64,000 bases of DNA from Octadecabacter antarcticus 307 (GTDB lineage Bacteria; Pseudomonadota; Alphaproteobacteria; Rhodobacterales; Rhodobacteraceae). Shown here piece after piece: positions 12,301 through 58,571 of the stretch. Below the pieces are notes generated by a model. That model had not been told where the DNA came from. It did no database searches and saw only the letters and a program-made list of their open reading frames with translations. The stretch is taken from assembly GCF_000155675.2 (NCBI RefSeq), contig NC_020911.1, positions 4,330,501 to 4,394,500 on the forward strand, read 5' to 3'. The position numbers and the translations under genes are program-made. Positions within the stretch are counted from its first letter, which is position 1. Every line of letters starts with the position of its first letter.

Positions 12301-12336
12301 CTGGCAGGCGATTGCAAAGCAATCTGCCGAGACGGG
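12301..12336 (+). repeat. Dispersed hairpin element, degenerate copy
   Basis: It has the family layout CTGGCA, then GGCGATTGC-AAA-GCAATCTGCC, then GAGACGGG. The left end is shortened and the right end has one change from GAGAGGG. It lies at a joint where about 40 codons of the IS5 transposase are missing. The stem is identical to the copy at 20837-20877. Confidence 0.7.
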
Positions 12337-12592
12337 TCACCCTAATTGGCAGGGATACATCGCCCGCGGCGGTCAGATCCTTGACGCTTCCATCGTGCCG
12401 GTTCCGCGCAACGAGAACGTAGCGATCAAGACGGGCAAGGTGCCTGAGGATTGGGCAGGTAAGCCCGCGAAATGAGTGCAGAAGGACATGGCCGCGCGCT
12501 GGACTAAAAAGCACGGCAAGAGCCACTACGGCTACAAAAACCATGTGAATGTGGACCGAAAGCACAAGCTGGTGCGGCGCTATTACGTCAGC

Positions 12593-12632
12593 CCCTCTCG
12601 GGACATTGCTGCGCAATGCCCTGCCGGTTGAT
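12593..12632 (-). repeat. Dispersed hairpin element
   Basis: Read on the minus strand: ATCAACCGGCA, stem GGGCATTGC-GCA-GCAATGTCCC, right end GAGAGGG. It sits at the second deletion joint of the IS5 remnant, between the codons for VRRYYVS and GKPPTKQ. Confidence 0.75.
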
Positions 12633-12713
12633 AGGCAAGCCGCCGACCAAGCAGGCTGAGGGTAGCAACCGGACCAAGTCCGCCGTGCGGGTTCGGGATG
12701 AAGAACTTCGCTT

Positions 12714-12830
12714 AGTGGACCGCCGGAATATGGGCATCGGCGGCTTCACACCCGCAAAGAAACTGTACCAGCACCAAATGGCTGCGTAATTCTAGGTTGA
12801 AACACCTCCATAAGTGGGGGGATTGCTCAC
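12714..12830 (+). pseudogene. IS3-family transposase tail and IS end
   Basis: The frame encodes DRRNMGIGGFTPAKKL...MAA and a stop, the C-terminus of an IS3 OrfB (compare DRPNMGMGGTTPAQKLKMAA in the remnant at 42905-43254). It is joined directly to the IS5 remnant, so it is a chimera of two dead elements. The following CACC...GGGGGATT stretch resembles the terminal repeat after the IS3 copy at 42.9 kb. Confidence 0.7.
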
Positions 12831-12908
12831 TATAAAATGCAATTTTGTCAAACTCGGCCGCGTTGGATAGTCACAATGGGCGGTGGCCTCGACAGGTGGA
12901 CGCTCAGC

Positions 12909-12946
12909 AAAAAAATACCCCCGCCGATTTCTCGGCGGGGGTATTA
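12909..12946 (-). terminator. Strong intrinsic terminator after rplP
   Basis: A 14-bp perfect stem (12932-12945 with 12914-12927, GC-rich, tetraloop-sized loop) is followed on the minus strand by a run of seven to eight T. It lies about 40 bp past the rplP stop, so the rplB-rplP unit ends here. Confidence 0.95.
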
Positions 12947-12982
12947 CTTTCAATAATGTGGTGGGCAATTTGCCCGCCTACA

Positions 12983-13396
12983 TTACCAGTCCTCGCGAAC
13001 AATAGTTCGTGTCTTGACGGGAAGTTTCATAGCGGCAAGGCGCAGGGCCTCACGCGCGATATCTTCGTTCACGCCGTCGATTTCAAACATGATGCGGCCG
13101 GGTTTAACCTTACAGGCCCAATAATCCACGGAACCTTTACCCTTACCCATACGAACTTCGGTGGGCTTGGACGTCACAGGTACGTCCGGGAAAATACGGA
13201 TCCAGACACGGCCCTGACGTTTCATGTGGCGTGTCATCGCGCGGCGTGCTGCCTCGATCTGACGTGCAGTCACACGCTCCGGCTGAGTCGCTTTAAGGCC
13301 ATAAGTACCGAATGTCAGGTCAGAGCCGCCTTTGGCTTCTCCCTTAATGCGGCCTTTATGTTGCTTGCGGAATTTAGTGCGTTTTGGCTGAAGCAT
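12983..13396 (-). CDS. rplP: 50S ribosomal protein L16
   Basis: L16 (137 aa) contacts the peptidyl transferase centre. It starts [15 protein letters not shown] and contains [23 protein letters not shown] and [18 protein letters not shown]. It is now the last gene of its unit, followed by a strong terminator; rpmC normally follows directly. Confidence 0.97.
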
Positions 13397-13408
13397 TGAT
13401 CAATCCCC

Positions 13409-14125
13409 CTAGCGATCACGGCCACCAGGACGTGCGCCGCGCGGGGGCGGGCCATCCTGTAGCTCTTGCAGCTTACGATCATGTGCAGACGGGTCGTGCT
13501 CCATGATTTCACCTTTGAAGATCCAAGTCTTGATCCCGATGATACCATAGGCAGTCTGCGCTTCCACATGCGCGTAATCGATGTCGGCACGAAGTGTATG
13601 CAAAGGCACGCGGCCCTCACGATACCATTCGGTCCGCGCGATCTCGGCGCCGCCAAGACGGCCCGCGAGGTTCACACGAATACCAAGGGCACCCATACGC
13701 ATTGCGTTCTGCACGGCACGCTTCATAGCGCGGCGAAAGGACACACGGCGCTCAAGCTGCTGCGATATACTCTCACCGACAAGTTGGGCATCAAGCTCGG
13801 GCTTGCGGACCTCAAGGATATTGAGGTGCAGTTCGCTGGCGGTCAATGCTGCAAGCTTCTTGCGGAGAGTCTCGATGTCCGCGCCCTTCTTGCCAATGAT
13901 GACGCCAGGGCGTGCAGTGTGAATGGTCACGCGGCACTTCTTGTGCGGACGTTCGATGATGACACGGCTAATACCAGCCTGCGCGCATTCTTTCTTGATG
14001 AAGGCCTTGATCTTAAGGTCTTCGAGAAGAAGATTACCGTAGTCTTTGGTATCTGCGTACCAGCGGCTGTCCCAGGTCCGGTTGACCTGAAGACGCATGC
14101 CGATCGGGTTTACTTTATTACCCAT
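13409..14125 (-). CDS. rpsC: 30S ribosomal protein S3
   Basis: S3 (238 aa) lines the mRNA entry tunnel. It begins [13 protein letters not shown] and has a KH domain with the GxxG loop in [15 protein letters not shown], and the C-terminal domain block [21 protein letters not shown]. The ATG overlaps the rplV stop (TAATG). Confidence 0.97.
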
Positions 14126-14505
14126 TATGCTTGCTCCTCAACTTGGCGCACTAGGATTGTCAGCTCAGAGAACGGCTTGACGATTTTACCGAAGCGGCCA
14201 CGGGCACGTGGACGTCCGCGTTTCATCGTCAAGTTTTTACCCACGTAGGCTTCGGCGATGACCAATTCATCAACGTCGAGGTTGTGGTTGTTTTCTGCAT
14301 TCGCAATTGCTGACTGAAGACATTTCTTCACATCTGCTGCGATCCGCTTTTTGGAGAATGTTAAGTCCGTGAGGGCCTTGTCCACCTTTTTGCCGCGGAT
14401 CATTTGTGCGACGAGGTTCAGTTTCTGCGGCGATGTCCGAAGCATGCGCAGTTTTGCCCGCGCTTCGTTGTCAGCCACGCGGCGGGGATTTTTATCCTTG
14501 CTCAT
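14125..14505 (-). CDS. rplV: 50S ribosomal protein L22
   Basis: L22 (126 aa) extends into the exit tunnel. Typical segments are [26 protein letters not shown] and the tunnel hairpin region around [14 protein letters not shown]. It is coupled to rpsC and lies 3 bp after rpsS. Confidence 0.97.
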
Positions 14506-14508
14506 GGC

Positions 14509-14787
14509 TTATTTCCGCTTCGCTTTTTTATCAGCCGAGTGGCCATAATAGGTACGGGTCGGGCTGTATTCGCCAAACTTCTGACCGATCATGTCTTCGG
14601 TGATGTTCACTGGGATGTGCTTGCGGCCATTGTAGACGCCAAACGTCAAGCCAACAAACTGTGGCAGGATCGTTGAGCGACGGGACCAGATTTTGATTAC
14701 GTCATTGCGGCCAGATTCCTTGGCAACTTCGGCTTTCTTAAGCACGTAGCTGTCAACGAACGGACCTTTCCATACGGAACGAGCCAT
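14509..14787 (-). CDS. rpsS: 30S ribosomal protein S19
   Basis: S19 (92 aa) is at the head of the small subunit. It starts [20 protein letters not shown] and has the signature [16 protein letters not shown] and [20 protein letters not shown]. It follows rplB by 2 bp. Confidence 0.97.
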
Positions 14788-14789
14788 TC

Positions 14790-15632
14790 TTAACGACCCT
14801 TCTTTTTGGCGTGCCGTGACCGGACAATAAGCCGGTTGGACGCTTTGTTCTTGTTGCGGGTTTTTGCACCCTTCGTGGGCTTACCCCATGGCGTCACTGG
14901 GTGACGACCACCAGACGTACGACCTTCACCACCACCATGCGGGTGGTCGACAGGGTTCATTACGACACCACGGACCGACGGACGCTTACCATAATGGCGC
15001 ATACGACCGGCTTTACCCATGTTCTGGTTGGAGTTGTCAGGGTTGGACACGGCACCTACGGTGGCCATGCATTCCTGACGCACGAGGCGAAGTTCACCCG
15101 AGCTCAGACGGATCTGCGCGTAACCGCCATCCCGACCAACGAACTGAGCATATGTTCCAGCGGCGCGCGCAATTTGCCCGCCTTTGCCTGGCTTCATCTC
15201 AATGTTGTGGATGATGGTACCGATGGGCATACCGGAAAACGGCATCGCGTTGCCCGGCTTGATGTCTGCCTTGGCAGACGCGATGACCTTGTCACCAATC
15301 GCAAGACGCTGCGGTGCGATGATATAGGTCTGTTCGCCATCAGTATATTGAACCAGCGCGATAAACGCGGTGCGGTTCGGGTCATATTCAATACGCACTA
15401 CGACAGCTTGAATGTCGAGTTTGTTGCGCCTGAAATCTACGATGCGGTAAAGGCGTTTTGCCCCACCACCACGACGACGTGATGTGATCCGTCCGGTGTT
15501 GTTCCGTCCGCCCGATTTGCTAATACCCTCAGTGAGGGCCTTAACTGGGCGGCCTTTCCAAAGCTCCGAACGGTCAATCAGCACCAACCCACGTTGGCCA
15601 GGCGTCGTCGGTTTATACGACTTGAGTGCCAT
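14790..15632 (-). CDS. rplB: 50S ribosomal protein L2
   Basis: L2 (280 aa) is essential for peptidyl transfer and subunit joining. The conserved loop [15 protein letters not shown] with the key histidine is intact, as is the C-terminal [16 protein letters not shown]. It heads the rplB-rplP unit. rplW, its normal upstream neighbour, is 8.1 kb away behind IS630, a HEPN-type gene and a nested IS3/IS110 block. Confidence 0.97.
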
Positions 15633-15720
15633 GTTTGCTACTTCCGTTTGCTTGGCGGACCGCTCGCGCGGCCCTGATGTTATAGGCCCCCGTAGGTGCC
15701 CGACTTAGTTGTCGATAAAG

Positions 15721-15754
15721 ACAAAAAACATAGCCCCAGACGAATCTGGGGCTG
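15721..15754 (-). terminator. Intrinsic terminator or attenuator in the rplB leader
   Basis: On the minus strand a 9-bp stem AGCCCCAGA / TCTGGGGCT (15753-15745 with 15740-15732) is followed by a run of six T. It lies about 90 bp before rplB and directly after the promoter at 15767-15795. It may be the old end of an upstream gene, or an attenuator. Confidence 0.8.
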
Positions 15755-15766
15755 TGTTGATGAGGT

Positions 15767-15795
15767 CGTTTAGGGGGGATGGGGGGGCGGGTCAA
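15767..15795 (-). promoter_or_regulatory. Putative promoter upstream of rplB
   Basis: On the minus strand TTGACC (15795-15790) and TAAACG (15772-15767) are 17 bp apart with an almost pure C spacer, the same style as the rpmC and rplO promoters. A weaker -10-like TATAAC is at 15684-15679, after the terminator, and could be a second start. Which one feeds rplB is not clear. Confidence 0.45.
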
Positions 15796-15830
15796 TAGCT
15801 CCATCAATTGCATACAACTTGAACACTAAC

Positions 15831-16971
15831 TATACTGCGCGTCATTGAGGACCCGAAGAACTTGTTGATGTTTGCACGGGAATAGATTCTTCTTCGCCTA
15901 TGATCCGTCCCAACTTTCTTTCCTGCGAAGACCGCCGCGAGCTTTTGAGCTGTGTAAAACGCCAACGCGAGGATCATGGCGTTGCGCGCCGCGCGAATGC
16001 GCTTTTGCTACTGGATGACGGGAAGTCCTGTGTCGAGATTGCGCAGGTGCTTTACCTTGATGACGACACGGTGCGTGGCTGGCACAAACAATATCTGTCC
16101 GAGGGCTGGGATGCGGTAGCATATGACGGTTGGAAAGGCGGGCAATCGCGGCTGTCTGTCGCGCAGGAAGCCGCTCTTTGCGTTTGGCTTGAGGAACATT
16201 TCTGCCGATCTACAGTGGAAATCCGCACCTATGTCGCGGCGCAGTTCGATCTGGAATATTCTCATTCAGGCTATGTTAAGCTTTTAGCGCGACTAGGCTT
16301 TGAATATCGCAAGCCCAAGGCGCTGCCGCGCGTGGCCGATGTAGCCAAACAGGCCGAATTCATCGCAATGTATGAAAACATGCTGAATTCTCTGGCCGAT
16401 GATGAGGCGGTTTACTTTGCAGATGCCGTGCACCCAGAATATCAAAGCAAGCCTGCCTTTGGTTGGGTGAAGAAGGGCACAAACCCCACGCTCAAAACGA
16501 CTTCAGGCCGGGCGCGCGTCAACATTCACGGCGCGTTGAACCTTTAAACCTTCGATACCCCTTTCGTAGCGCCGATCACAGTGGACGGCGTGAGTGCCGT
16601 GCAATTGCTGGCCAAAATCGAGGCACGCAACCAAGATAAACGCATCATCCACGTGATCTGGGACAACGCCGCCTACCACAAAGGGCCTGATGTGAGGGGC
16701 TTCCTGGCGCGCAAAAACTGCCGCATCCACTTGATCCAGCTGCCGCCCTATTGCCCGCACCTAAATCCGATTGAAAGGCTTTGGGCCGTGATGCACCAGC
16801 ACGTCACCCACAACCGCGCATATCCCACACAGAAGCAATTTACCGGAGCCATATTGAAGTTCTTCCGAGAAACCATCCCAGAACAATGGCGCGACTTCCG
16901 AAATCAGGTCACTGATAATTTCCGCATCATATCACTCCAAAAACTTCGGGTTTTAGAGTGAAGTGAGTATA
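15831..16971 (+). mobile_element. IS630-family insertion sequence
   Basis: Related ends are seen as TATACT...ACCCGAAGAACTT at the left and its inverted counterpart (TATACT...ACCCGAAGTTTTT) at the right, next to TA, the target of this family. It holds one transposase frame with a single stop codon. It is inserted between the rplB leader and the HEPN-type gene. Confidence 0.8.
15900..16961 (+). pseudogene. IS630-family transposase with one nonsense codon
   Basis: The N-terminal half (HTH, RRANALLLLDDGKS; WHKQYLSEGW) and the C-terminal DDE half are in the same frame, separated only by TAA at 16545-16547, where GAA would restore the normal NLETFD sequence. Catalytic residues are visible in YFADAVHP, IWDNAAYHKG and NPIERLW. 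It is dead by a single substitution, which suggests recent loss. The full product would be about 353 aa, normal for IS630. Confidence 0.88.
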
Positions 16972-17030
16972 ACGCATTCCGTTAGCCAAGCCCGCCGGCT
17001 CAAAACGTCGAGGAACGTTATATAACGCCA

Positions 17031-18020
17031 ATGAGTTATGTTTCTGTAACCTTGCTGCCAGCGCCAGCTAAGCTAACCCAATTGAGACAGGTAGTTGACT
17101 TGCTTGGTTATCAAGTATCGCGCGATAGCATGAAAATTCCTAATCGCGTAGGAAATTACTTTTGGTATGAGCGTTCCGACTACAAGTCTTGGACGGGCGT
17201 CGAACTAGATATTTATAAGTCAAACGGGGCAATTATGGTGAACACCCGCTCTAGATCGGGGCGAAGCTACTGGGATTTGGTTAAGCAAAACGAAACAATT
17301 AAGTTGATACGAGACCTTTTTGGAGGAACTTTTGAGACCGATGCGGGTAACGGCCGATACTTTCGTCCATACAATGATCCTCCGTCGCACGTTTCATCTG
17401 GCTGTTATCTTGCTCGATGGAGGTGTCACAATGCTTTAACGAAGGTTGATTTTTACCTTCAGAGCAGAAAACTTGAAGGACAAATCGCGCGCGACAGGCC
17501 GTCTGGCTTCCCATTTATCGACGAAATGAACCCACGACTGCTTTCAAACAATCTTCTCGTCCCTTACGTTTTGGCAGTTTGGGAAGAATACTTCAGAGCA
17601 ACATTCGCTGTAATATTTCAGCATTCGGATGCTCGGCAATCTGTGCTCAAGAAAGCTAGATTAAGCCACTCTCAATTGGAGAGCATCGCGGCGCAGTCCT
17701 ATCAAATTGAGAGGGTCATCGCAGATTGCTTTTCGTTTCAACGACCGAGCGCAATTGGCAAAAATTTCAAACTCATTGACTCCCAGCTCGATCTTGCTGG
17801 CGCAATACGCAAACCGTATCGAAATCGCAAGCGAACTCTGTTCGACTCAATAGATAAAGTTGTCGAAATGCGGAACATCATTGTTCACGAAGGCGATTTC
17901 GATCACACTCTTTTTGATAAGGAACTCAAGACAGTAGTTGATGATGTAAGGGTGGCGATCGACAGGATTTACGATGCACTGGGCACACGCTTTGATTTTG
18001 AGCCGATACGAGACTATTAA
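17031..18020 (+). CDS. HEPN-domain protein, putative RNase of a defence or stress type
   Basis: A 329-aa protein of unrecognised overall family. The C-terminal third is helical and ends with KVVEMRNIIVHEGDFD (near residues 280-295). The RNxxxH motif (RNIIVH) is the hallmark of HEPN ribonucleases, and the layout with a preceding helical SHSQLESIAAQSYQIERV segment resembles RiboL-PSP-HEPN-type proteins. The N-terminal 180 residues are mixed alpha/beta without a motif I can name. Base composition is clearly more AT-rich than the ribosomal genes, indicating transfer. It stands alone between IS630 and transposon debris. Function is inference from the motif. Confidence 0.65.
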   Translation: MSYVSVTLLPAPAKLTQLRQVVDLLGYQVSRDSMKIPNRVGNYFWYERSDYKSWTGVELDIYKSNGAIMVNTRSRSGRSYWDLVKQNETIKLIRDLFGGTFETDAGNGRYFRPYNDPPSHVSSGCYLARWRCHNALTKVDFYLQSRKLEGQIARDRPSGFPFIDEMNPRLLSNNLLVPYVLAVWEEYFRATFAVIFQHSDARQSVLKKARLSHSQLESIAAQSYQIERVIADCFSFQRPSAIGKNFKLIDSQLDLAGAIRKPYRNRKRTLFDSIDKVVEMRNIIVHEGDFDHTLFDKELKTVVDDVRVAIDRIYDALGTRFDFEPIRDY

Positions 18021-18045
18021 AATCGCCTTCGAAAAAGCGCCTAAA

Positions 18046-18091
18046 AAAGGCCCCCGCATCACTGCTGACGCATTCCGGCTTTTGGGACACA
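18046..18091 (+). repeat. 46-bp repeat, copy 1 (3' of the HEPN-type gene)
   Basis: Twenty-six bases at 18066-18091 are identical to the complement of 23666-23691, and flanking bases back to AAGGCCC are also similar. This copy lies inside a long inverted repeat AGGCCCCCGC (18048-18057) / GCGGGGGCCT (18115-18124) just after the HEPN-type stop. Its partner is in the 3' untranslated region of rplW. Confidence 0.7.
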
Positions 18092-18141
18092 TAGAGGCTT
18101 TCGCGATTTATTTCGCGGGGGCCTCTTGATTGAGAAAGCCA

Positions 18142-18555
18142 TTACCGTGTCTCGAACTTTCTCCAAAGCGGTGTGCCGTGGAACAACCAAGGTCGATAAA
18201 AGATCCTGCGTGGATCAGGTGCCTTGTTCTTTGGATTGTCGGCACCCAGCCGCATCGCCGGGGTCCGCATTACCGGCGCGGCGGTTCGCCGCTTCGGGAC
18301 TTTCAGGGATTTGGACGATCCAGGAACCCGCACTGTAGAGACACCTTGGGCCACCTCGGTTGTGCCCTGCCCCGACGACCCAGACGCTACATACTGCCGT
18401 GTCTCGAACCAGTTGTAATACACGCGATAGATATTGAGCAGGGCGACCAAGCTAGCAGGATTAAATACTGCGCCGTTTATGTAGCTGGGACCGTTTCGAC
18501 TGCCGCGCCCACCTGCCCGCGCGGTTGGACTGATCCGGCTCCGCACAGAGTTCAT
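18142..18555 (-). pseudogene. C-terminal remnant of an unidentified, probably mobile-element, protein
   Basis: The frame encodes VALLNIYRVYYNWFETRQYV and, further on, VPKRRTAAPVMRTPAMRLGAD and YRPWLFHGTPLW. This looks like a conserved protein tail without its N-terminus; no start with a ribosome binding site is seen. Similar tails occur in transposase-like proteins of marine alphaproteobacteria as far as I recall, but I cannot name the family. It lies next to the larger broken gene at 18670-20405. Confidence 0.4.
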
Positions 18556-18669
18556 AAAAGCGGTTCATACAGGCTGGATTGTGGTGTTCAACACACGACG
18601 AGCGAGCGCCTCCCTTAGATCGTCATCAGCTATCTTTTGATCGAAGCCTACCGACTTCAAACGCTTTCG

Positions 18670-20690: not shown

Positions 20691-20731
20691 TCTTCTCGGG
20701 ACATTGCTGCGCAATACCCTGTCAGGCGAGG
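20691..20731 (-). repeat. Dispersed hairpin element in IS3 OrfA/OrfB
   Basis: 41 bp inserted cleanly between ATGCTC and GACAATGCA; removing it restores the conserved MLDNAMLRD. Read on the minus strand: left end CCTCGCCTGACA, stem GGGTATTGC-GCA-GCAATGTCCC, right end GAGAAGA. It is a diverged copy whose stem keeps pairing. Identical sequence is in the duplicate block at 45498-45538. Confidence 0.8.
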
Positions 20732-20836
20732 GACAATGCAATGTTGCGAGACATCAATTCAAAAAAATGGTGACGCCCGTTGGGAAGCTTAAAGCTGTGG
20801 TTCACTTGATGGAAACTCATCAGGTTAGCCAGCGAC

Positions 20837-20877
20837 CATTGCCCGGCAGGCGATTGCAAAGCAATCTGCCGAGAGGG
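20837..20877 (+). repeat. Dispersed hairpin element in IS3 OrfB
   Basis: CATTGCCCGGCA, stem GGCGATTGC-AAA-GCAATCTGCC, GAGAGGG. About 40 bp inserted in the codons for QRRACDVL, a near-universal IS3 motif; excising it restores the motif. The duplicate is at 45352-45392. Confidence 0.9.
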
Positions 20878-22974: not shown

Positions 22975-23304
22975 GGCACAGAATTCACCAGCATGGCGAT
23001 CCTCAAATGGGTTCAAAATACGGGTATCGATTGGCATTATATCGCGTCCCGCCGCCCGGCAGTGGTTTGCTTGCAAACCATGAGAGGGGGCAAGCCCCAG
23101 CAGAACGGGTTCATCGAAAGCTTCAACGGTAAACTAAGAGATGAATGCCTCAATGAAACGCTGTTTGCTACATTGGGCGACGCCCGCAAAACGCTTGAAG
23201 AATGGCAGGACGACTACAACTGGCGCAGACCACATTCAGCTCTGGGGAACCTGACGCCAATGGAATTTTTAGAGAGAAGGATCATCGACAAGATGGCCGC
23301 TTAA
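22975..23304 (+). pseudogene. IS3 OrfB, 3' part
   Basis: Continues the IS3 gene after IS110: [20 protein letters not shown], then [19 protein letters not shown] with the catalytic Glu, then [19 protein letters not shown] hairpin element (23050-23088) is inserted between the codons for HYIAS and GKPQQ. Because it is 39 bp and has no stop in this phase, the frame stays open through it. Confidence 0.9.
23050..23088 (+). repeat. Dispersed hairpin element in IS3 OrfB 3' part
   Basis: CGCCGCCCGGCA, stem TGGTTTGC-TT-GCAAACCA, then GAGAGGG; 39 bp. It is the only copy here that leaves the host frame fully open, adding 13 codons in front of the conserved GKPQQNGF motif. Confidence 0.92.
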
Positions 23305-42325: not shown

Positions 42326-42729
42326 TGCTTCGACTCCGTCAGCATGCCGCTATATGAGGATTGAGGAGCTAATGGGTCTGAAATTCGGTTGATCATGTGA
42401 GTTCCCTTTCAAACAACTGAACCCAAACTATCACCAAAAGTCTTGTGTTGATGGCTCCTGCATAGCAAGACATTTTTGATCAGATTTGTGCATTTGTCAG
42501 AAGCAGTCGTGTGTTCCCGCTGCCCGGCAGTTGATCGCAAGGCAATCAATGAGAGGGGCCTGTTGGCGCGGCTTACTCGACCGCTGGCCCTGATGGTTTC
42601 TACTAACCGAGTCCAATTCTGCACATCGAACAGCGAGCGTTCAGGACAAAGCACGGTGTGTCTTGGTTCTAGGACTGACAAGTTTTCCATCACTTCATTG
42701 GTATTGCTATCTCCGTGTTTCAGTTTGGG
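42326..42729. other. Region without identifiable gene, containing one hairpin element
   Basis: No frame here resembles a known protein. The hairpin at 42518-42557 is the only clear structure, so this copy may lie outside a transposase gene. Sequence character suggests further decayed mobile DNA. Confidence 0.4.
42518..42557 (+). repeat. Dispersed hairpin element
   Basis: CGCTGCCCGGCA, stem TTGATCGC-AAG-GCAATCAA with one mismatch, GAGAGGG; 40 bp. Host sequence unidentified. Confidence 0.88.
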
Positions 42730-42967: not shown

Positions 42968-43007
42968 CACTGCCCGGCAGGGCATACGAAGTATGCTCCC
43001 GAGAGGG
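42968..43007 (+). repeat. Dispersed hairpin element
   Basis: CACTGCCCGGCA, stem GGGCATAC-GAA-GTATGCTCCC, GAGAGGG; 40 bp. It splits the codons for TYNN-DRPNM in the IS3 OrfB (on the opposite strand). Removal restores the motif exactly. Confidence 0.92.
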
Positions 43008-43142: not shown

Positions 43143-43179
43143 CATTGCGCGGCAATGCATGTTTACATGCATGAGAGTG
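43143..43179 (+). repeat. Dispersed hairpin element
   Basis: CATTGCGCGGCA, stem ATGCATGT-TT-ACATGCAT, GAGAGTG; 37 bp. It splits the codons for YIQP-GKPQQ in the IS3 OrfB (opposite strand), the same protein position as the copy at 23050-23088 but in reverse orientation. Confidence 0.92.
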
Positions 43180-45351: not shown

Positions 45352-45392
45352 CCCTCTCGGCAGATTGCTTTGCAATCGCCTGCCGGGCAATG
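45352..45392 (-). repeat. Dispersed hairpin element (duplicate of 20837-20877)
   Basis: Identical sequence carried by the duplicated block; not an independent insertion. Confidence 0.9.
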
Positions 45393-45497: not shown

Positions 45498-45538
45498 CCT
45501 CGCCTGACAGGGTATTGCGCAGCAATGTCCCGAGAAGA
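45498..45538 (+). repeat. Dispersed hairpin element (duplicate of 20691-20731)
   Basis: Identical sequence carried by the duplicated block; not an independent insertion. Confidence 0.8.
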
Positions 45539-46353: not shown

Positions 46354-47116
<763 letters not shown>

Positions 47117-47120
<4 letters not shown>

Positions 47121-47467
47121 TTGCGAAACGGGCGGTCGAGCTCCGCCTGTGCAAAATACGCCGACGCCTTACGCAAAATCTCATTGGCTTGACGCAGTTC
47201 GCGGTTCTCACGCTCAAGTTCCTTGATCCGCGCCTTCTCAGCGCTGGTAGGCTCTGGCCGTTCGCCGCCATCGCGCTGGACCTGACGGGCCCAAACGCGA
47301 AGGCTGTCCGGTGAACAACCCAATTTACCCGCGATCGCCGTCAGCGCCGCAGCTTCGCTCTGATATTCATCGCGGTGTTCCATAAGCAGCCGAACCGCAC
47401 GCTCGCGGAACTCAGGTGAATACGGCTTCGAGGTCTTCTTCTTTTGTGTCTGTTCCATAACGGGCAA
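47117..47467 (-). CDS. IS3-family OrfA
   Basis: A 116-aa protein with the IS3 helix-turn-helix (SPEFRERAVRLLMEHRDEY, GCSPDSLRVWARQVQRD) and a leucine-zipper-like tail (ELERENRELRQANEIL). It overlaps OrfB by ATGA, the usual site of programmed frameshifting. It appears intact, although OrfB is broken, so no active transposase is expected. Confidence 0.85.
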
Positions 47468-47833: not shown

Positions 47834-47852
47834 TCTTTGCTGCCATTCCCTG

Positions 47853-49300: not shown

Positions 49301-49893
49301 TTAGTTGTTCGGTCCCGGCATCTGTTGGATCGGATTAACGATGAATCTTTCTGGTTCTGAAGTCCCTATCTTGCAGATGTATTCGTACGGCGTCAGGCCG
49401 TTGAGCGTCTTCAGCCTTCGAGCGAAATTGTAGGCCGCTATGAAGTCTGCGAGATGGGTGTGCAGCTGATCATTCTTGTCGTAGTGATGCCGCCTGACTG
49501 TTGCGTCCTTGATCGTGCGGTTCATCCGCTCAACCTGGCCATTGGTCCATGGATGGTTGGGCTTGGTCAGCCGGTGCTCAATCCTGTTGGCATCGCAGAT
49601 CATGTCGAACCGCATAGGCCGTGAATATGGTGTGTTCCGGTTACGTGGTTGCTCACAAAATTGAATGCCATTGTCCGTCAGAATTGTGTGGATCTTGTAT
49701 GGCACCGCTTCCAGCACAGCCTCCAGGAACTCCCAGGCCGTCTTGCGATTTGCTTTTTCTACAAGCCGTGCCACGGCAAACTTGCTGGTTCGGTCCCTCT
49801 CGTGACATCGCTTTGCGATTCACTGCCGGGCAATGAATGGCAACAAAGAGATAAAGTTTTCCTTCGTTGGTGCGCAACTCTGCAATGTCGATA
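49301..49893 (-). pseudogene. IS481-family transposase, 3' part with hairpin
   Basis: Reads IDIAELRTNEGKLYLFVAI, hairpin, then DRTSKFAVARLVEKANRKTAW, ILTDNGIQF, NHPWTNGQVERMNRTIKDATV and a normal end. The hairpin stands directly before the first catalytic Asp. The 5' part is cut off by the IS5 element at 49894. Confidence 0.88.
49796..49835 (-). repeat. Dispersed hairpin element in IS481 transposase
   Basis: CATTGCCCGGCA, then GTGAATCGC-AAA-GCGATGTCAC, GAGAGG; 40 bp between GCCATT and GACCGA. Removal restores FVAIDRTSKFA exactly. No target-site duplication is evident. Confidence 0.92.
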
Positions 49894-49947: not shown

Positions 49948-50919
49948 TCAGCCTACAGTAACGGTGTTTGGGATGCCAAGGGCGGTGAAGCCGTTGAGTA
50001 TCGCGGCACGGATTTGGACTTCCGCAACTTGCCGGTCAAAGTCTCGTGCGGCCAGGCGCTGCCCGAGTAGTTTCAAACAATGCATCTTTGTCTCAACACG
50101 ACTCCTGCGGTGGTATCCGCTCAAGCGACGCCATTGAGCGCGGCCGAGATCCTTTGAGGACTGTACCGCTTCGTTTCGGGCTCTGGCCCCCAGCGTATCC
50201 GGCTTCCATAGCTTGGCATTCTTGCGTGGCGGGATGACAGCACGGGCATTGCGGGCCGCAATCGCATCATGGCATTTGCGGGTGTCATATGCCCCATCTG
50301 CTGTGACACTGCCAATCTTCTGATCTGGTGTGATCTGACCGAGAAGGTTGGGCAACATGGGTGGGTCTCCAATGCTGCTACTCGTCACTTCGACCGCGCG
50401 TATCTCCAACGTTTCTTCATCAATCCCTATATGTATCTTGCGCCACACCCGACGTTTCGGCCCGCCATGCTTGCGAGCGTTCCACTCACCTTCGCCCTCA
50501 ACTTTGATGCCGGTACTGTCGATAAGGAGGTTTAGCGGGCCCTTTGAGCCCTGATACGGGATGGTAACCGATAGCCTTTTCTGACGCCGACATAACGTGC
50601 TGAAGTCTGGGACCTCCCAGTCAAGGTCGATCAATTTCAACAGGCTTTCCACAAAGCCCGTCGCCTGCCTCAAAGGCATTCCGAACAGCACTTTCAACGT
50701 GAGACAGGCTTGGATCGCCGCATCGCTATAGCGTGGCTGGCGGCCCCGTTTGCCCCCCTCTCATGGTTTGCAAACAAACCACTGCCGGGCAACGGTAGGC
50801 GCAGCTTTCCAAGTGACCTCTGGGTTAAACCAAATGGTCAGTGACCCGCGTCGCTTCAGGGCCTTGTTATACTCAGGCCAGTTCCTCGTGCGGTAAATCG
50901 GGGCGATAGGTTTACTCAT
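49948..50919 (-). pseudogene. IS5-family transposase interrupted by a hairpin
   Basis: Starts at ATG 50919 (MSKPIAPIYRTRNWPEYNKAL), reads to WKAAPT, then the 39-bp hairpin adds an in-phase TGA, then GKRGRQPRYSDAAIQACLTLK and the whole catalytic part from about 50697 (LLIDSTGIKV, TADGAYDTRK, RSRVETKMHC). Apart from the hairpin the gene looks intact, which makes it the cleanest test case. Confidence 0.9.
50756..50794 (-). repeat. Dispersed hairpin element in IS5 transposase
   Basis: CGTTGCCCGGCA, stem TGGTTTG-TTTG-CAAACCA, GAGAGGG; 39 bp between the codons for APT and GKRG. It is the only lesion seen in this transposase. Confidence 0.92.
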
Positions 50920-50986
50920 GACGCCAGCTACCATGCTGGATTTACAACATGAATCCCTGATACGAGACTATTTGTGCAACAAAGCC

Positions 50987-52689: not shown

Positions 52690-53129
52690 ATTTGGCTGAA
52701 AGCAGATTTTGTTAAATTACCTCCGAACAGCGGCTTCGCCCGCGATGTTTGAGCTCGAATATGACGCGGCGAAAAGTCGGTTTGGAATCCGCCAAGACCA
52801 GTAGCGTTGAACGGCCGCTTTGACGACACAGGCTGCACTGCAGCTACAAACTGGCCGCATCTGCAAAGTAATGCTGCGTCAGCGAAGGCGAAAAATCCAA
52901 GGTCGGTTTTGTCCGCGTAGCAGACCTCGGTGCAACGCGCAGCGAAGGTCTGCTATCCGCCCTTGGTGTCGAAATGTGCGCACCGCAGCATTCGTCACAA
53001 ACGGCCCAAGCGCTAAACCGCTCCGCGATATGGGCGCTCGTGGCGGGTGTAAGCCATACGCAAAAAGCCTCACTTTTTCTGGAGGACTCGTCAAACGTTG
53101 AGGTGGCGTTGATGTGTTTTGGACGCACG
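52690..53129. repeat. Non-coding region with repeats
   Basis: Contains a second copy of the GTCGAAATGTGCGCACCGCA / GCATTCGTCACAAACG block and GCAGCGAAGG repeats. No gene seen. Confidence 0.45.
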
Positions 53130-53156
53130 AAAGCCCGACTGATTAGGTCGGGCTTT
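53130..53156 (+). terminator. Hairpin terminator-like structure
   Basis: AAAGCCCGAC pairs with GTCGGGCTTT around a 7-base loop; the flanking A and T runs would serve either direction. It is followed by GGTTGCGGGAGCACGCAACC, a small palindrome often seen next to terminators in this group. Confidence 0.7.
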
Positions 53157-53309
53157 AAGCGTTTGATATTGTTTATTATATTGGTTGCGGGAGCACGCAA
53201 CCGCCGCAACCTACCCACTTTATGCTGTATTGTTTGATTTTAGCACAAGCCCAACTAATACGGGGCTTCTGCCAGTGTGCTTTTGGCGCTTTTTGTGCGC
53301 CGCTTGTCA

Positions 53310-53612
53310 TGGCCAGCGGCTTGAAATGGACGCTTGGAATGCGCCGTCTATCACGCGCTGCCAAGGCCCGTCGCGCGTGTGTTCAAGACCCAGAACCGAG
53401 ATCACCATCTCGTGTCCAGCAGACTTGGCTTGTGCCTCCGTCAGACCAACGCTTACCACTTGCGGATCGGAGAAGATCCACAGCAGGCATGACGCTATGA
53501 CCATAGGATAACGTGTTTCCGTTCATTGCATTTTTGGCGACGAGCTTCGCACCGAATGCCGCCATATAGATAAGCTGACCCATCCCAGTCACATCGCCAG
53601 TCGCATACATGA
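53310..53612 (-). pseudogene. Mercuric reductase-type flavoprotein, C-terminal remnant
   Basis: Two frames give YATGDVTGMGQLIYMAAFGAK, then SDPQVVSVGLTEAQAKSAGHE and LGLEH. This matches the FAD-binding and dimerisation region of MerA-like pyridine nucleotide-disulfide oxidoreductases. The ends are lost and the frame is shifted near 53490. It may reflect an old mercury-resistance transposon; a different oxidoreductase of the same family is possible. Confidence 0.7.
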
Positions 53613-53661
53613 TCAGCTCTAAAGTGGACACGCTGGCCGGCTCAGGCAGAACCGGTCAGCG
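53611..53661. repeat. 51-bp repeat, copy 1
   Basis: GATCAGCTCT(A/G)AAGTGGACAC followed by GCTGGCCGGCTC and GGCAGAACCGGTCAGCG. The second copy is at 61110-61160 with two differences. Both are at the edge of a truncated gene, so it is probably the end of an unidentified mobile element. Confidence 0.75.
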
Positions 53662-53671
53662 ATTAACGCAA

Positions 53672-53876
53672 CCTATTCGACTGGCAGCCATTGAACTGCA
53701 CACCTCCAAAGCTTTTGGTGAGCCCAGCACCCGGCGTGTTCACCTTGCGTTCCCAACTTAAGAGTGTAACAAAGTGGAGATTTAATCATGACAAATACTG
53801 TTAAGGCCAAGGGGCATCTGAGGCCGAATGATTACTATGTCGTACCTGTGACGGCAATGCAGCTGAGCTACATGAC
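53672..53876. repeat. About 205-bp repeat, copy 1
   Basis: Similar over its length to 63725-63930, covering a leader and the first codons of the gene starting at 63842. Identity is moderate, so this is an older duplication. Confidence 0.7.
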
Positions 53877-53886
53877 ATCCTTTTGA
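53788..53886 (+). pseudogene. Truncated copy of the gene at 63842
   Basis: Encodes MTNTVKAKGHLRPNDYYVVP and AMQLSY before breaking off; the partner at 63842 reads MTNTVKTEEHLQSNDYYIVP. GTGGAG precedes the ATG in both. Function unknown. Confidence 0.7.
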
Positions 53887-54078
53887 CGACGTGTTGTTGA
53901 TCAAGCAGATGTTGATTGGTTGGCGCATGCTCGAAGCCCAAATCTATATCTGTCGTACCAGCGGGTTGACACAAATCGCGCGCCGAACAATGGCATATGT
54001 ACGATCTATCCGCAGGACCAAAATTTGTCGCTCAAAGTGCAGCTTCTCTTGGATCTACTGAACGAGGAATTAAGTTAA
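53887..54078 (+). pseudogene. LysR-type regulator C-terminal remnant
   Basis: About 60 codons ending in TAA: VDQADVDWLAHARSPNLYL and CTIYPQDQNLSLKVQLLLDL, which resembles the end of a LysR-family effector domain (xxVYPxxxxLSxKVRxFxDFL). The rest is missing at the junction with the previous fragment. Confidence 0.55.
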
Positions 54079-54118
54079 ACCTGCGTGGTCTATCCATGTC
54101 ATTGAAAAGGAATATCAT

Positions 54119-55024
54119 GTGATCGTCAGGGACCATCCGTCATCGTTTCGGCTATTTTTTGTCATGCAGGGATCTGTTGTGCCCAAAATTCTGGGCAAAA
54201 TCATCGGCATTGCGCTGTTATCAGTCGTTGTCCTGTTGGTTAATCACTACGTTGTCACGCTACCTAAAATTTCGATCGGGGCGATGGGAATATTTGGCGT
54301 CGCACTTTCGCTTTTCCTCGGGTTTCGGAACAACGCAGCATATGACCGATGGTGGGAAGCCCGCAAACTATGGGGGTCAATGATCGCCGATGTCCGTAAT
54401 CTGGGGCGACATATGTACGTCTTTGTCGGTAAGGGGGAGGAACGCGAAGTCATCCTGGCTTATGCGGTCGCCTTTGCACATTTGCACCGTGGTTTCTTGC
54501 GAGGGGTCGATGTGCAGCCTGAGGTTACCGGCTGGGTCGGCGAAGAAAGCGCCGCGTCGATGATCGGGAAACAGAACCCGGCAGATGCGGCATTGCGAGC
54601 GATAGCCCACAGGATTGGGGCGCTGATCAAAAAGGACGCGATCAGCGGATTTGGTCAGATGACCATTTCGCAAACGCTGTCTTCGCTGGCTTTCGCGCAA
54701 GCCGGATGTGAACGCATTTTGACGACACCCTTGCCGTTCGTGTATTCTCTACTGGTCCGCCGCACGACCTATCTCTATTGCTGGTTGCTACCCTTCGCGT
54801 TGATTGACTCCACAGGCTGGTTTGCCCCAATATTTGCGGCAGTCGTGGCCTATGTGTTCTTTGGCCTACAGGCCGTCACGAACGAGCTGGAACTGCCGTT
54901 TCGTAATGTTCAGAACGGACTACCCGTCGATTCGATGTGTCGCACGATTGAGATTTCGGTGGCCGAAGCGCTGGATCGCACCCCGCCAGACAGCTTGTCC
55001 CCGACAAATCATGTGTTGAGTTAA
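54119..55024 (+). CDS. Bestrophin-family membrane protein (YneE-like)
   Basis: A 301-aa inner-membrane protein. The block LGFRNNAAYDRWWEARKLWG (about residues 62-81) is the bestrophin signature, followed later by RRTTYLYCWLLPFALID and the ELELPF motif. Bacterial homologues form pentameric ion channels. The start is GTG at 54119 with AAGGA 7 bases upstream. It stands alone; the neighbouring operon is convergent. Confidence 0.88.
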   Translation: MIVRDHPSSFRLFFVMQGSVVPKILGKIIGIALLSVVVLLVNHYVVTLPKISIGAMGIFGVALSLFLGFRNNAAYDRWWEARKLWGSMIADVRNLGRHMYVFVGKGEEREVILAYAVAFAHLHRGFLRGVDVQPEVTGWVGEESAASMIGKQNPADAALRAIAHRIGALIKKDAISGFGQMTISQTLSSLAFAQAGCERILTTPLPFVYSLLVRRTTYLYCWLLPFALIDSTGWFAPIFAAVVAYVFFGLQAVTNELELPFRNVQNGLPVDSMCRTIEISVAEALDRTPPDSLSPTNHVLS

Positions 55025-55122
55025 GGTATTGGGCTTGGGCAAGGCAGCCGTTCAACGCGCCTATGTGGAACTGGCTGACATAGGTTAGCCAGCCACATTG
55101 GTTTTTTGTATAGGAGAAAGAG

Positions 55123-55518
55123 TTAGACGCCCGCCAGACGCACCAAGACGATTGCGGATGTGCCGATATGGACCAACGTCAGCACAACTGACGCACTATG
55201 CAGTACTTTAGACTGCCGCTTATGCCCTGCATCCGTTGCGGCATTGATCATTGGCATCAATATTTGGCGCGCAAAAACGGTGGATATGGCTATAAATAGC
55301 AACGCAGCACCTGACGTTAGATCGCCTGCAAACGCTGCCAATGCCGCTACAGTTGCTGTCACAAAGACAAAGGTGTAGAAATGAGGAAAGGCTTTTCGGA
55401 TCAGTGGACTGGCGGTCTCTGCGGGTAGTGCAGTAAACAGGAACGCAGCAAAACCGAATGCGTATAACGTCATGCCACCAAACAAAAGTGCGGTGATGAG
55501 AAGAGCGAAAATCGTCAT
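55123..55518 (-). CDS. Small membrane protein, DUF4149/TMEM205-like
   Basis: A 131-aa protein with four hydrophobic helices (FALLITALLFGGMTLYAFG, YTFVFVTATVAALAAFA, AALLFIAISTVFA, VLTLVHIGTSAIVLV) and the LxxxINxxxDA segment LMPMINAATDAGHK typical of DUF4149 proteins. It overlaps the methyltransferase gene upstream by ATGA, so the three genes 57045-55123 form an operon. Confidence 0.7.
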   Translation of the reverse strand: MTIFALLITALLFGGMTLYAFGFAAFLFTALPAETASPLIRKAFPHFYTFVFVTATVAALAAFAGDLTSGAALLFIAISTVFARQILMPMINAATDAGHKRQSKVLHSASVVLTLVHIGTSAIVLVRLAGV

Positions 55519-56234
55519 TTTGAGAACTCCGGTAGGCTGGCAAGGCCCATATAAATAATCGTTTTGAACGGCAACGGACCAAAAGTAAAATCACCACGAC
55601 GATTGATGCCGCGTGGTCCCAACCCAGTTTGTGGACCAGAAACAAAGCCTGCCTTTGCAAGCGCATCACGCAGTTCTCTGGGCTTAATGAACATCTTGGG
55701 ATCGTGCGTCCCCTGCGGCAAAAGACCAAGCACATCCTCGGCGACTGTGATGGTTGCCAACCGAGCGATGGGATTGCGGTTGATCGTATCGTACAAAAAT
55801 AGCCCACCGGGTTTGAGCACCCGCGCAACTTCAGCCAAAACTTTGGTCAGATCAACGACATGTTCCAAAACATCAACGCAAACGACTGCATCGAAATGAT
55901 CGTCCGGATAAGGCAGGTTCTCACCCACACCGATATCATATCGGATCACTTGATCCATCTGCTTTGCTCGTTTGGTCGCGACAGAAATGGCTTGCGCGGC
56001 GGGGTCAACCCCGGTGACATTTGCGCCTTTATCTGTCAGCGCCTCGGCCATGAACCCCCCGGCGCAGCCCAAATCAAGCACTGCTTTTGCCTCCCAATCG
56101 ATGTGACGGCTGAACCACGCAAGCCTTGCAGGCACGAGATTTTTCAACGTTCGGACCCAGCGGATATCGTCTGACCACCAATCAGCAGCAACGTCATCGT
56201 AGATATCAAGGTTATTGCGCTGCTTATTCGTCAT
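55515..56234 (-). CDS. SAM-dependent methyltransferase, UbiG-like
   Basis: A 239-aa class I methyltransferase. The SAM-binding motif I is VLDLGCAGGFMAEALTDKG (about 51-69), followed by VTGVDPAA and the post-motif FDAVVCVDVLEHV. It resembles UbiG, the O-methyltransferase of ubiquinone synthesis, but in this context (between a membrane methyltransferase-like protein and a DUF4149 protein) it may act on another lipid or small molecule. It overlaps the upstream gene by 11 bp. Confidence 0.8.
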   Translation of the reverse strand: MTNKQRNNLDIYDDVAADWWSDDIRWVRTLKNLVPARLAWFSRHIDWEAKAVLDLGCAGGFMAEALTDKGANVTGVDPAAQAISVATKRAKQMDQVIRYDIGVGENLPYPDDHFDAVVCVDVLEHVVDLTKVLAEVARVLKPGGLFLYDTINRNPIARLATITVAEDVLGLLPQGTHDPKMFIKPRELRDALAKAGFVSGPQTGLGPRGINRRGDFTFGPLPFKTIIYMGLASLPEFSK

Positions 56235-57045
56235 GATGCTTTACTCTGCGTAGGGTTGGGAATGCGTAAGGGACGCGGTGTTTGTAGGCCGCAAAACGAT
56301 CGCCATAGCGTCGCGCGAACCGGCGTTCTTTCAATGTCGGTGCGACAAGACAGTAAAGTGTCAATCCCAATGCCAAGCCCAGTTGGTCGGGGGTCCACAC
56401 CGGTACAGTCCATGTGGTCAACGCGAAGGCCACATAGATTGGCTGGCGGATTACGCGGAACAGACCACGGGTAGGCATATCGGGGAACACAGGCCGGATC
56501 TTTTGCATCAATGACATCCACCCTAACGCCCCCGATTGCACCTCGGCACCCGCATCGAAGCTGGCCCAGATCAGCAGGAGCCATGACAGAGTATAAATCG
56601 CACAGATCAGCACCAAACCGGTTCCCTCTGCGCGCCACCAAATGATCCCGCTTGGTGTCCAAAAAGCGAAAATCGCCAATAGTTGGATCGATGCAATGAT
56701 AGCGTAAGTCGTGGTCAACAGTGTTTTCCCGTGCCCCATCGGTGCCAGCTTTGCAAGAAACCTGCTGCCATGAGATGATAGCAGCAACGAATGAACGGCA
56801 GGAAACTGCACGATCAACGCAATATTGGCGAGGACTGACCATGGCGCGGGGACACGGCCAAAGCTCTCACTCATCCCAAAGAACATCGCAGACATCATGG
56901 CCAGCACGGCAAGGCCGAACACGATATGACACAGTAGACCGTAGGCAAGCGCCAAAGCGATACGCGCGGCCCCCGGCGGTGGGCGCAGTGTCCCAAGGGC
57001 AAGTGTCCAAAGGCGGTTGGGAGGCGATTCCGGAGTTACGTTCAT
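56224..57045 (-). CDS. Integral membrane methyltransferase-like protein (ICMT/NnrU/MddA type)
   Basis: A 273-aa protein with about six hydrophobic segments. The C-terminal half has the isoprenylcysteine methyltransferase-like signature: RGLFRVIRQPIYVAFALTTW and ERRFARRYGDRFAAYKHRVPY. Relatives include NnrU and MddA, which methylates methanethiol to dimethyl sulfide; which one applies here cannot be decided from sequence. ATG at 57045 is preferred to TTG at 57114. It is the first gene of the operon. Confidence 0.7.
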   Translation of the reverse strand: MNVTPESPPNRLWTLALGTLRPPPGAARIALALAYGLLCHIVFGLAVLAMMSAMFFGMSESFGRVPAPWSVLANIALIVQFPAVHSLLLSSHGSRFLAKLAPMGHGKTLLTTTYAIIASIQLLAIFAFWTPSGIIWWRAEGTGLVLICAIYTLSWLLLIWASFDAGAEVQSGALGWMSLMQKIRPVFPDMPTRGLFRVIRQPIYVAFALTTWTVPVWTPDQLGLALGLTLYCLVAPTLKERRFARRYGDRFAAYKHRVPYAFPTLRRVKHHDE

Positions 57046-57209
57046 GAAGTCAAAAGTAGCGTTGAAAGGACTGTCGTCCAGCGTTCTCGACGATACGTCG
57101 CTGTTAAGATCCAAATGGGTTTGGCCGTTTAGACACTTCAGAAACTGAAATCAGCTGCGCCAGAAAACCCGTTTTTAAAATAGTACCTCTTATCTGTTAG
57201 AAGAGTCGT

Positions 57210-57527
57210 CTAACGAGGTCGCTTGCCGCGCCAGATGAGTGACAGCTTGTTAAGATCGTGCAGATTAATCCGATTGACCACAATGTCTTCACACAACTGT
57301 ACAGCACGGGCAGCTTGATCGTGGGTGAGATGTTTGTAAGCGGGTCGCGCGAGATGTTGATACCAAACCCCGTCACAGACAGCATCAAGAACTATGCGCT
57401 GGAAACAGTGATCATTTCTTACGGGCCATCTGTTTGAGGGATCACGCGCCATTTGAGGCATCACCTCTTTAGTAAGGACCAGATAACGGCTGACGAGGTC
57501 TGCGGTGCAGTTTATAGAAGGATTCAT
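57210..57527 (-). CDS. Conserved hypothetical protein
   Basis: A 105-aa soluble protein with the block RWPVRNDHCFQRIVLDAVCDGVWYQHL and RPAYKHLTHDQAARAVQLCE, which I recall as a common small protein of Rhodobacteraceae without known function. No ribosome binding site is obvious. It lies between the methyltransferase operon and an IS3 remnant. Confidence 0.6.
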   Translation of the reverse strand: MNPSINCTADLVSRYLVLTKEVMPQMARDPSNRWPVRNDHCFQRIVLDAVCDGVWYQHLARPAYKHLTHDQAARAVQLCEDIVVNRINLHDLNKLSLIWRGKRPR

Positions 57528-57649
57528 TTTGTATCCATGCTCATCGGTAGAAGAGCTTCAATAGCGAAGCCTGCTTCTTACTTACTTAACAACATGTTTC
57601 TAAATTTACATTATACATGCTGACCTGCCCCCCGAGGCTCCCTCATTCA

Positions 57650-58571
57650 TAACGAGAGTTTGCGGGTTTGGATTTTGTAATCTGTGGTTTCGTTTTGGGC
57701 AAGCGCGTCGTGCGTGGAGGCCTCAAATTGCTCAAGCGTACGACGCGCTTCTGCAGGTGTTTGGTTTCCGAGTGATGAGTGCGGCCTGACGTTGTTGTAG
57801 TCGTAGCGCCAGCTTGCGACGGGCGTCATCTAACGTATCGAAGATCTCCTCATTCAACAGCTCGTCACGCAAACTGCCGTTGAAGGACTCGATGAAGCCG
57901 TTCTGCTGCGGTTTGCCAGGGTCGATGTAATGCCCATCTACGTTGTTGTCGCCGGCCCACTTCAAGATCACCCGGCTTGTGAACTCAGTTCCATTGTCTG
58001 AGACAATGCAGACAGGTTTTCCGTAGACGCGCACAAGCGCGTCAAGTTCCCGCGCAACACGAGCGCCCGAGATGCTGGTGTCGGCCATTAGGCAGAGGTT
58101 CTCACGGCAGCAATCGTCATTCACACCCAACATACGGAACTTGCGTCCCTCTCATGATTTGCAAGCAAACCACTGCCGGGCAATGGACGCGCCAAACGTA
58201 TCGGACACAAAATTCAGCGACCAACGCTCGCCAAGCTGCAAAGCCACTGGCATAGGTGTCCGTGATCCGCGTGCACGTTTATGGCCTCTTCGCCGCCTGA
58301 CGCCCAGCATTTCCTCAATATAGAGCCGATACAGCTTCTTGTGGTTCATGATCATTCCCTTGCGCTCCAACAGCACGCCGATCCGGCGATAACCGAACCG
58401 ACGCCGCTTGCTGGCAATTGTTTTCATCTCTTTGAACTTTGGGATTATCCGGCAGCTGATCGCGCCGGACGGTCTTGGGATCGACACCGACAAGCCTGCA
58501 CGCCCGGCGTTGCGAGATATCATGTTCCGGCATTGCCTTGCGTGCTGCAGCCCGTCGCACATTCGGTGCCG
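57650..58571 (-). pseudogene. IS3 OrfB, multiply frameshifted
   Basis: Pieces in order: ISQRRACRLVGVDPKTVRR, KRRRFGYRRIGVLLERKGM, GERWSLNFVSDTFGAS, hairpin, [62 protein letters not shown]. At least two frameshifts occur besides the hairpin. Confidence 0.88.
58147..58185 (-). repeat. Dispersed hairpin element in IS3 OrfB
   Basis: CATTGCCCGGCA, stem TGGTTTGC-TT-GCAAATCA (one G-U pair in RNA), GAGAGGG; 39 bp between GCGTC and ACGCAAG. In phase it adds TGA. Confidence 0.92.

Follow-up and report, generated by a model that had tools for sequence, protein, structure and literature searches.

The 64,000-nucleotide (nt) stretch of Octadecabacter antarcticus 307 analysed here (contig NC_020911.1, positions 4,330,501 to 4,394,500; hereafter, the window) carries a family of hairpins, about 40 nt long, that interrupt the transposase genes of insertion sequences (IS). 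A sequence-only reading of the window had listed fourteen copies, twelve of them independent, and proposed that the fold served either mobility or an RNA function. All fourteen were present, and the count of twelve held, with 20691/45498 and 20837/45352 being inverted copies of one segment. We hypothesize, with moderate confidence, that they are single-hairpin, non-autonomous DNA elements mobilised in trans and built like the single-stranded DNA (ssDNA) elements of the IS200/IS605 and repetitive extragenic palindrome (REP) types. The ssDNA pathway of those elements fits the hairpins because they show no target duplication, a retained tetranucleotide, a kept fold and a conserved 5' foot.

Structure, junctions and genomic location of the hairpins

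The consensus element reads 5'-CRYT-GCCCGGCAG-[stem-loop]-(Y)GAGAGGG-3' and is usually 37-43 nt in total. The four CRYT nucleotides are part of the element, as read off alignments with hairpin-free homologues, and the base between the stem-loop and GAGAGGG is usually T or C. The core, from GCCC to GGG, mostly spans 33-39 nt. Class A hairpins (core 37 and 39 nt) carry a single bulged base in the 3' arm, three pairs up from the foot, which is a T in 35 of 40 distinct sequences of core 37 nt and in 10 of 10 of core 39 nt; class B hairpins (core 33-36 nt) lack the bulge, and their foot is often a G.T pair. Loops of the C(GNA)G type, which are very stable in DNA, close 24 of 41 class A hairpins of core 37 nt. 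GCAG stands at the 5' foot in 191 of 217 site representatives, and in several window copies folding predicted that CCC and GGG form an outer arm, with GGCA/GAGA as an internal loop.

Pairing was assessed on distinct sequences with strict ends in six core lengths, and the paired fraction was 0.953 (37 nt), 1.000 (39 nt), 0.974 (33 nt), 0.919 (34 nt), 0.917 (35 nt) and 0.915 (36 nt). For the 37-nt core this corresponds to 95.3% against 73.6% after shuffling, and in every class none of 500 shuffles, which preserve column composition and not the relatedness of copies, equalled the observed value. Hairpin sequences were diverse, with 150 different hairpins among 210 distinct strict sites and 184 among 217 site clusters. 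The stem sequence is free to vary while pairing is retained. The sequence-only reading had taken these changing stems to imply selection on the folded form. The retained pairing on which it relied stands, and selection is one of two accounts of it, as pairing would be equally expected if one arm were copied from the other at transposition. Stem changes were one-sided in 31 cases and two-sided in 12 within sites, compared with 66 and 47 between sites, a difference that does not significantly separate arm copying from selection in place (p=0.14). One hairpin, at G014:C1:1273102-1273135 (G numbers denote genomes, L numbers loci), is apparently chimeric, with its left arm from one stem type and its right arm from another.

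Alignment to hairpin-free homologues revealed how the hairpins sit in their sites. Such a homologue was available for 77 of 149 distinct sites, and 42 of the 77 best alignments had exactly four extra bases and no other gap near the join. A longer comparison, requiring 100 aligned bases on each side, found a hairpin-free homologue for 148 of 300 occurrences, 100 of them gapless within 12 nt; counted by distinct site, 96 had a homologue and 60 were gap-free within 12 nt. The cleanest pair is an IS5-type transposase, L353 of this genome against L104 of G014 (99.2% identity over 400 nt, 97.7% over 1195 nt), in which the empty site reads GAAGCCATC followed by TTCGTCG and the occupied site holds a 42-nt element between the C and the T. 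Target site duplication, a trait of miniature inverted-repeat transposable elements (MITEs) of DDE transposons, was absent from the junctions compared with hairpin-free homologues. Empty sites therefore exist for 96 distinct sites, and the clean insertion without duplication that had been read from the window is borne out at 60 of them. Absence of a duplication and retention of a target tetranucleotide on the left are both traits of IS200/IS605 MITEs.

Exact CRTC precedes the element at 23% of 217 sites and 1.4% of 4309 nearby control positions; with up to one mismatch, the values are 55% and 11%. A G directly follows the element at 68% of sites. These frequencies suggest that a CRTC-like tetranucleotide is a preferred, not a fixed, target, with the element inserted 3' of it and before G. 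We also considered the element's own CRYT as a duplicated target and rejected this, as it matched the target at just 4 of 135 sites. An association between element position 2 and the first three positions of the target might, we conjecture, reflect a one-base shift (C-CGCT variants).

The hairpins are concentrated in repeated DNA, which holds 93 of 100 distinct sites of this genome against 136 of 400 random positions (p=9e-29); the 100 sites come from the window and 20 stretches chosen for hairpin density, and "repeated" means repeated among the fetched sequences. The seven other sites comprise three in an IS110-type frame, two within ~450 nt of a Y1 element, the window copy 12593 and one chance match in an ABC-transporter frame (L091:2889) that was counted among the 100. 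In 20 sparser regions, taken from among the listed matches of the genome, each of the 40 hairpins lay in DNA with homologues among the other loci fetched, weak ones in the case of L350. Ten proteins restored by hairpin removal comprised seven with DDE or rve transposase/integrase domains, one of IS110 type, one with a helix-turn-helix only and one without a Pfam match. When 13 proteins taken as transposases served as a fixed reference set, a match overlapped 107 of the 160 hairpins from this genome and 31 of the 78 from named genomes. Of the 47 unassigned sites in the latter set, 22 were judged by eye, IS families included: many resemble other IS fragments, some are ambiguous, and three (L187, L138 and L162) are apparently intergenic.

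Longest frames of at least 150 amino acids (aa) after hairpin removal defined 108 distinct insertions, 44 sense and 64 antisense, of which 100 shift or stop the frame; some genes with three or four hairpins are otherwise intact. A wider set of 238, which still includes chance matches such as L091:2889 and L081:4761, split into 85 sense and 76 antisense copies plus 77 outside any frame. The occurrence in both orientations, at many independent sites, in several IS families and with restored transposase frames, as described from the window, was thereby upheld. The same counts disfavour the RNA function that had been proposed beside mobility, because roughly half of the copies are antisense to the interrupted frame. 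The strong paired structure would be accounted for if the hairpins acted in RNA, as a terminator, regulator or small RNA, and had spread because that function was selected. We nonetheless regard this as very improbable: sense and antisense copies occur alike, many copies lie in degenerate IS DNA, and a search of the window with Rfam at gathering scores returned three matches, none on a hairpin.

Copy number and spread across genomes and IS copies

The genome that contains the window (4,875,481 bases, two contigs) has 309 exact matches to the strict pattern GCCCGGCA-N(10-30)-GAGAGGG and none to the reversed pattern. Across 61 genomes, this one included, 27 had a strict match, with counts of 1 to 309, and the reversed control gave 7 in total; the single strict matches of some genomes are stemless and represent chance. 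A covariance model built from the window copies, an approach that the sequence-only reading had proposed, recovered at least 150 copies in G000, 111 in G014, 37 in G031 and 75 in G066, and none in G003 or G005; 150 candidates were scored per genome, which makes the G000 count a lower bound. Scans of the whole collection found a paired hairpin in 78 of 179 loci among the matches listed. With E values of up to 1, 101 plasmid records matched, and a first-word tally with our own family assignment places at least 83 in Roseobacteraceae genera; an O. arcticus 238 plasmid carries the element. The hairpin family occurs in many Roseobacteraceae. We dropped G020 (8 strict matches) as a hairpin-bearing genome, as the one match inspected had no stem.

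Relatives occur elsewhere. The Rhodospirillales metagenome bin G061 (L128 and other contigs) has the same core with other stems, in DNA that is apparently intergenic. Outside Roseobacteraceae, Vreelandella neptunia (L131) and Labrenzia (L186) have 2 and 3 strict matches, respectively; these hairpins were perhaps carried there with IS elements.

Comparison of IS copies showed how hairpins relate to the DNA beside them. At one site, two unrelated hairpins (L075 and L084 versus L083) have identical near flanks. Among pairs with a far divergence of 0.03-0.35, a cut that adds some bias, 65 pairs that share a hairpin diverged by 0.051 within 25 nt, 0.139 at 150-250 nt and 0.109 at 250-450 nt, whereas 244 occupied/empty pairs (0.252, 0.253 and 0.230) and 21 pairs with different hairpins (0.234, 0.275 and 0.230) were flat. 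At a far divergence of at least 0.10, 43 hairpin-sharing pairs still showed 0.080 near the hairpin and 0.142 far from it. The pairs are not independent, many coming from one IS1182-type lineage, and the gradient points to recombination between IS copies. It is by itself no proof of drive, because sharing a hairpin selects for recent local ancestry.

This gradient bears on the possibility that the hairpins are homing-like and spread mainly by gene conversion between homologous IS copies, with new sites rare. The closeness of hairpin-sharing pairs near the hairpin, in both the 65 and the 43 pairs, is what such spread would leave. Against it, neutral recombination among IS copies, again with non-independent pairs, yields an equal gradient, and the 184 hairpins in 217 site clusters require very many primary insertions; we consider homing quite unlikely as the main route.

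In the IS1182-type lineage, one set of three hairpins recurs in six copies that are complete or almost so; another copy has two of the three, and in two others the first site holds a different hairpin. Further copies are broken. One pair of three-hairpin copies has dS 0.57 and dN 0.060. Just one near-complete copy of this IS without hairpins was seen in the genome, with a protein identity of 69%. Among 17 groups sharing a hairpin, we counted 34.8 synonymous and 20.2 nonsynonymous changes within 30 nt of it (pN/pS 0.19), and pN/pS was 0.24 within 60 nt, 0.35 within 90 nt and 0.44 within 150 nt; these values are based on longest frames and related copies. Such protein-conserving change beside shared hairpins could mean that the hairpins are silent, that short conversion tracts brought them into diverged functional copies, or that the IS copies are mobilised in trans. 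We had considered dN/dS as proof of function after insertion; the recombination signal weakens it, and the pN/pS of 0.19 within 30 nt keeps the option alive.

If the hairpins were silent intervening sequences, lost from the DNA by exact excision or removed from the RNA, the interrupted transposases would be functional. This would suit the otherwise intact genes with three or four hairpins, the dS/dN pair, the low pN/pS next to the hairpins and the multiplication of hairpin-bearing IS1182-type copies when the only near-complete empty copy is so distant. However, the presence of both orientations speaks against any single RNA signal, and short conversion tracts or mobilisation in trans account for the same data, in which pN/pS came from longest frames of related copies. 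Ribosome bypass is likewise unsupported, as none of the 44 sense and none of the 64 antisense insertions had matching take-off and landing codons. We therefore think silent removal quite improbable.

Proposed mechanism and comparison with known elements

In the mechanism that we propose for mobilisation in trans, the moving form would be ssDNA folded as a hairpin, and a trans-acting enzyme would recognise the fold and its fixed flanks. It would make one cut at the target, 3' of its tetranucleotide, and another after GAGAGGG, and the hairpin would be joined into ssDNA, as in IS200/IS605 and REP elements. GCAG at the 5' foot may guide the element to CRTC by pairing in the parallel sense, which we liken to the partial AAAG-TTAC pairing, and CCC/GGG pairing may present the right end. 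There is precedent for a tetranucleotide target and a guide 5' of the hairpin in passages of PMC5934647 and PMC8266576. A hairpin inside an IS would then be multiplied with it and shifted between IS copies by recombination; this, together with selection against insertions in host genes, may account for the near-exclusive location in IS.

Several results weigh against this proposal. Gaps lie near the junction at the remaining 36 of 96 distinct sites, and the CRYT bases differ between copies of one and the same site in 37 of 65 clusters. The guide did not behave as compensation would predict: at 9 sites with a GCAA foot, targets end in C at 6, G at 2 and T at 1. Y1_Tnp had no match in the verified hairpin-bearing genomes G031, G066 and G068, Y2_Tnp (IS91-type) none in hairpin-bearing G031 and G068, and RVT_1 (reverse transcriptase) none in hairpin-bearing G066, G067 and G068. 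At the 12 of 24 loci inspected, IS200-like elements of this genome end differently from the hairpin family. The strong preference for IS is not a consequence of an ssDNA mechanism as such, and mobility itself is inferred from sequence comparison. None of these three enzyme families, two of HUH type and one of reverse transcriptases, occurs in every verified host; hairpins in genomes without these families could have arrived with IS elements. The window genome's IS200-like elements at L060-L071 end in ACCGGC/GCCGGT hairpins and form at least two groups of Y1 elements.

The nearest described systems are REP sequences and their doublets (REPINs), with the REP-associated tyrosine transposase TnpA-REP (RAYT), and IS200/IS605 elements such as IS608. 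Like REPs, the hairpins are in the 20-40 nt range, numerous, marked by a short tag at the 5' foot, presumably mobile as ssDNA and organised in families with differing stems and loops. Like IS200/IS605 elements, they have folded ends and are inserted 3' of a retained tetranucleotide; IS608, too, leaves no target duplication. One could therefore suppose that they are ordinary REPs or solo ends (IS200/IS605 MITEs) moved by a resident Y1 transposase. Their size, single hairpin, lack of duplication, left-hand tetranucleotide and GCAG near the GTAG position agree with this, and Y1_Tnp has 24 matches in the window genome and 48 in G014. Passages of PMC3733652 report GTAG as degenerate to GYAG in some REP families.

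We consider this identity unlikely, as the hairpins differ from both systems on several defining traits. Their foot is GCAG and not the REP tag GTAG or CGTC, and they lie inside IS genes, whereas REPs are extragenic (the G061 relatives look intergenic). Their stems vary from site to site within one genome, and the conserved GCCC and GAGAGGG flanks are able to pair. No RAYT gene flanks them among the Y1 loci inspected (12 of the 24 in this genome, and G061), and hairpins near those 12 scanned loci had no fixed position or association. As a candidate source, the RAYT-like Y1 gene of G061, its only Y1, was rejected, as it sits among a different repeat. Unlike IS200/IS605 elements, the hairpins contain no gene and a single hairpin only, and the three verified hairpin-bearing genomes named above had no Y1_Tnp match; unlike IS200/IS605 MITEs, they do not share ends with the resident Y1 elements inspected. 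In style the family resembles REP and IS200 elements, yet it is separate from REPs in tag, location and RAYT association and from IS200 derivatives in its ends.

Two further kinds of small palindrome are known within genes. Rickettsia palindromic elements occur in alphaproteobacterial genes; they are longer and sit in frame within host genes. The present insertions disrupt the frame in 100 of 108 cases, and those interrupted genes that could be identified are transposases. Mitochondrial byp elements are short mobile hairpins inside coding sequence with matched take-off and landing codons; the present hairpins have no such matching codons and lie in both orientations. Literature searches, with subscription papers and preprints outside their scope, found no published description of such elements, and word searches of PMC3646047 (repeat, hairpin and inverted, 0 each), PMC10969869 and PMC13386836 returned nothing on them. 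With no Rfam match on the window hairpins and no description in searchable papers, the earlier statement that no named element fits still holds.

Should mobilisation in trans be correct, the family would be a very small gene-less mobile DNA unit with hundreds of copies, defined by a fold and short fixed flanks, and would form a layer of parasites upon bacterial transposons in a major marine group. It would provide ~150 natural hairpin variants for the study of folded-strand recognition, point to an enzyme that inserts DNA hairpins scarlessly and partly explain the many transposase pseudogenes in such genomes. The protein-conserving change beside shared hairpins, if it holds, would make the family much stranger. 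At the far end, to which we assign a slim chance, lies a hairpin that preys on transposons and is exactly removable, with a stem rewritten by arm copying, transposases that work via exact excision of some copies, and, given that none of the three tested families is shared by all verified hosts, an enzyme of an undescribed kind.

Copies in the window

A loose scan of the window gave 29 matches, and the 15 besides the fourteen listed copies are weak and chance-like. The 12-nt left-end pattern with up to one mismatch had 15 matches in the window against 4.1 expected, some of which are not elements. Ends are decayed in copies 12301, 12593 and 20691/45498. The longer junction comparison supplied a hairpin-free homologue for 4 of the 14 copies (42968, 50756, 58147 and 43143), and copy 42518 was also aligned to one in the earlier alignment of 149 sites. 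The site of copy 50756 holds the same hairpin in five further copies and then in two more.

Table 1 Hairpin elements in the window, with positions counted from its first nucleotide.
Feature	Position	Strand	Source
Degenerate hairpin copy, left end decayed	12299..12335	+	window scan
Hairpin element, class A, left end partly decayed	12593..12633	-	window scan
Hairpin element, class A, ends diverged; shares its insertion with 45498	20691..20731	-	window scan
Hairpin element, class A; shares its insertion with 45352	20837..20877	+	window scan
Hairpin element, class B, no bulge; right flank resembles, by eye, the transposase that is no. 8 of the ten restored proteins	23050..23088	+	
Hairpin element, class B; at least two genome copies of the site hold a variant hairpin	42518..42557	+	
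Hairpin element; gap-free hairpin-free homologue	42968..43007	+	window scan, homologue alignment
Hairpin element, class B; a single gap close to the junction against its hairpin-free homologue	43143..43179	+	homologue alignment
Hairpin element, inverted copy of 20837	45352..45392	-	window scan
Hairpin element, inverted copy of 20691	45498..45538	+	window scan
Hairpin element, class A, longer stem	46726..46768	+	window scan
Hairpin element, class A; hairpin and site shared by six copies, this one included, among the stretches fetched	49795..49835	-	
Hairpin element, class B, in IS5-type transposase; removal gives a 315-aa frame; gap-free hairpin-free homologue	50756..50794	-	
Hairpin element, class B; removal gives a 263-aa frame; gap-free hairpin-free homologue	58147..58185	-	

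The Rfam search also placed an ALIL pseudoknot (RF01497), a frameshift signal of IS3-type elements, at window positions 47046-47162 on the minus strand, ~280 nt from hairpin 46726.

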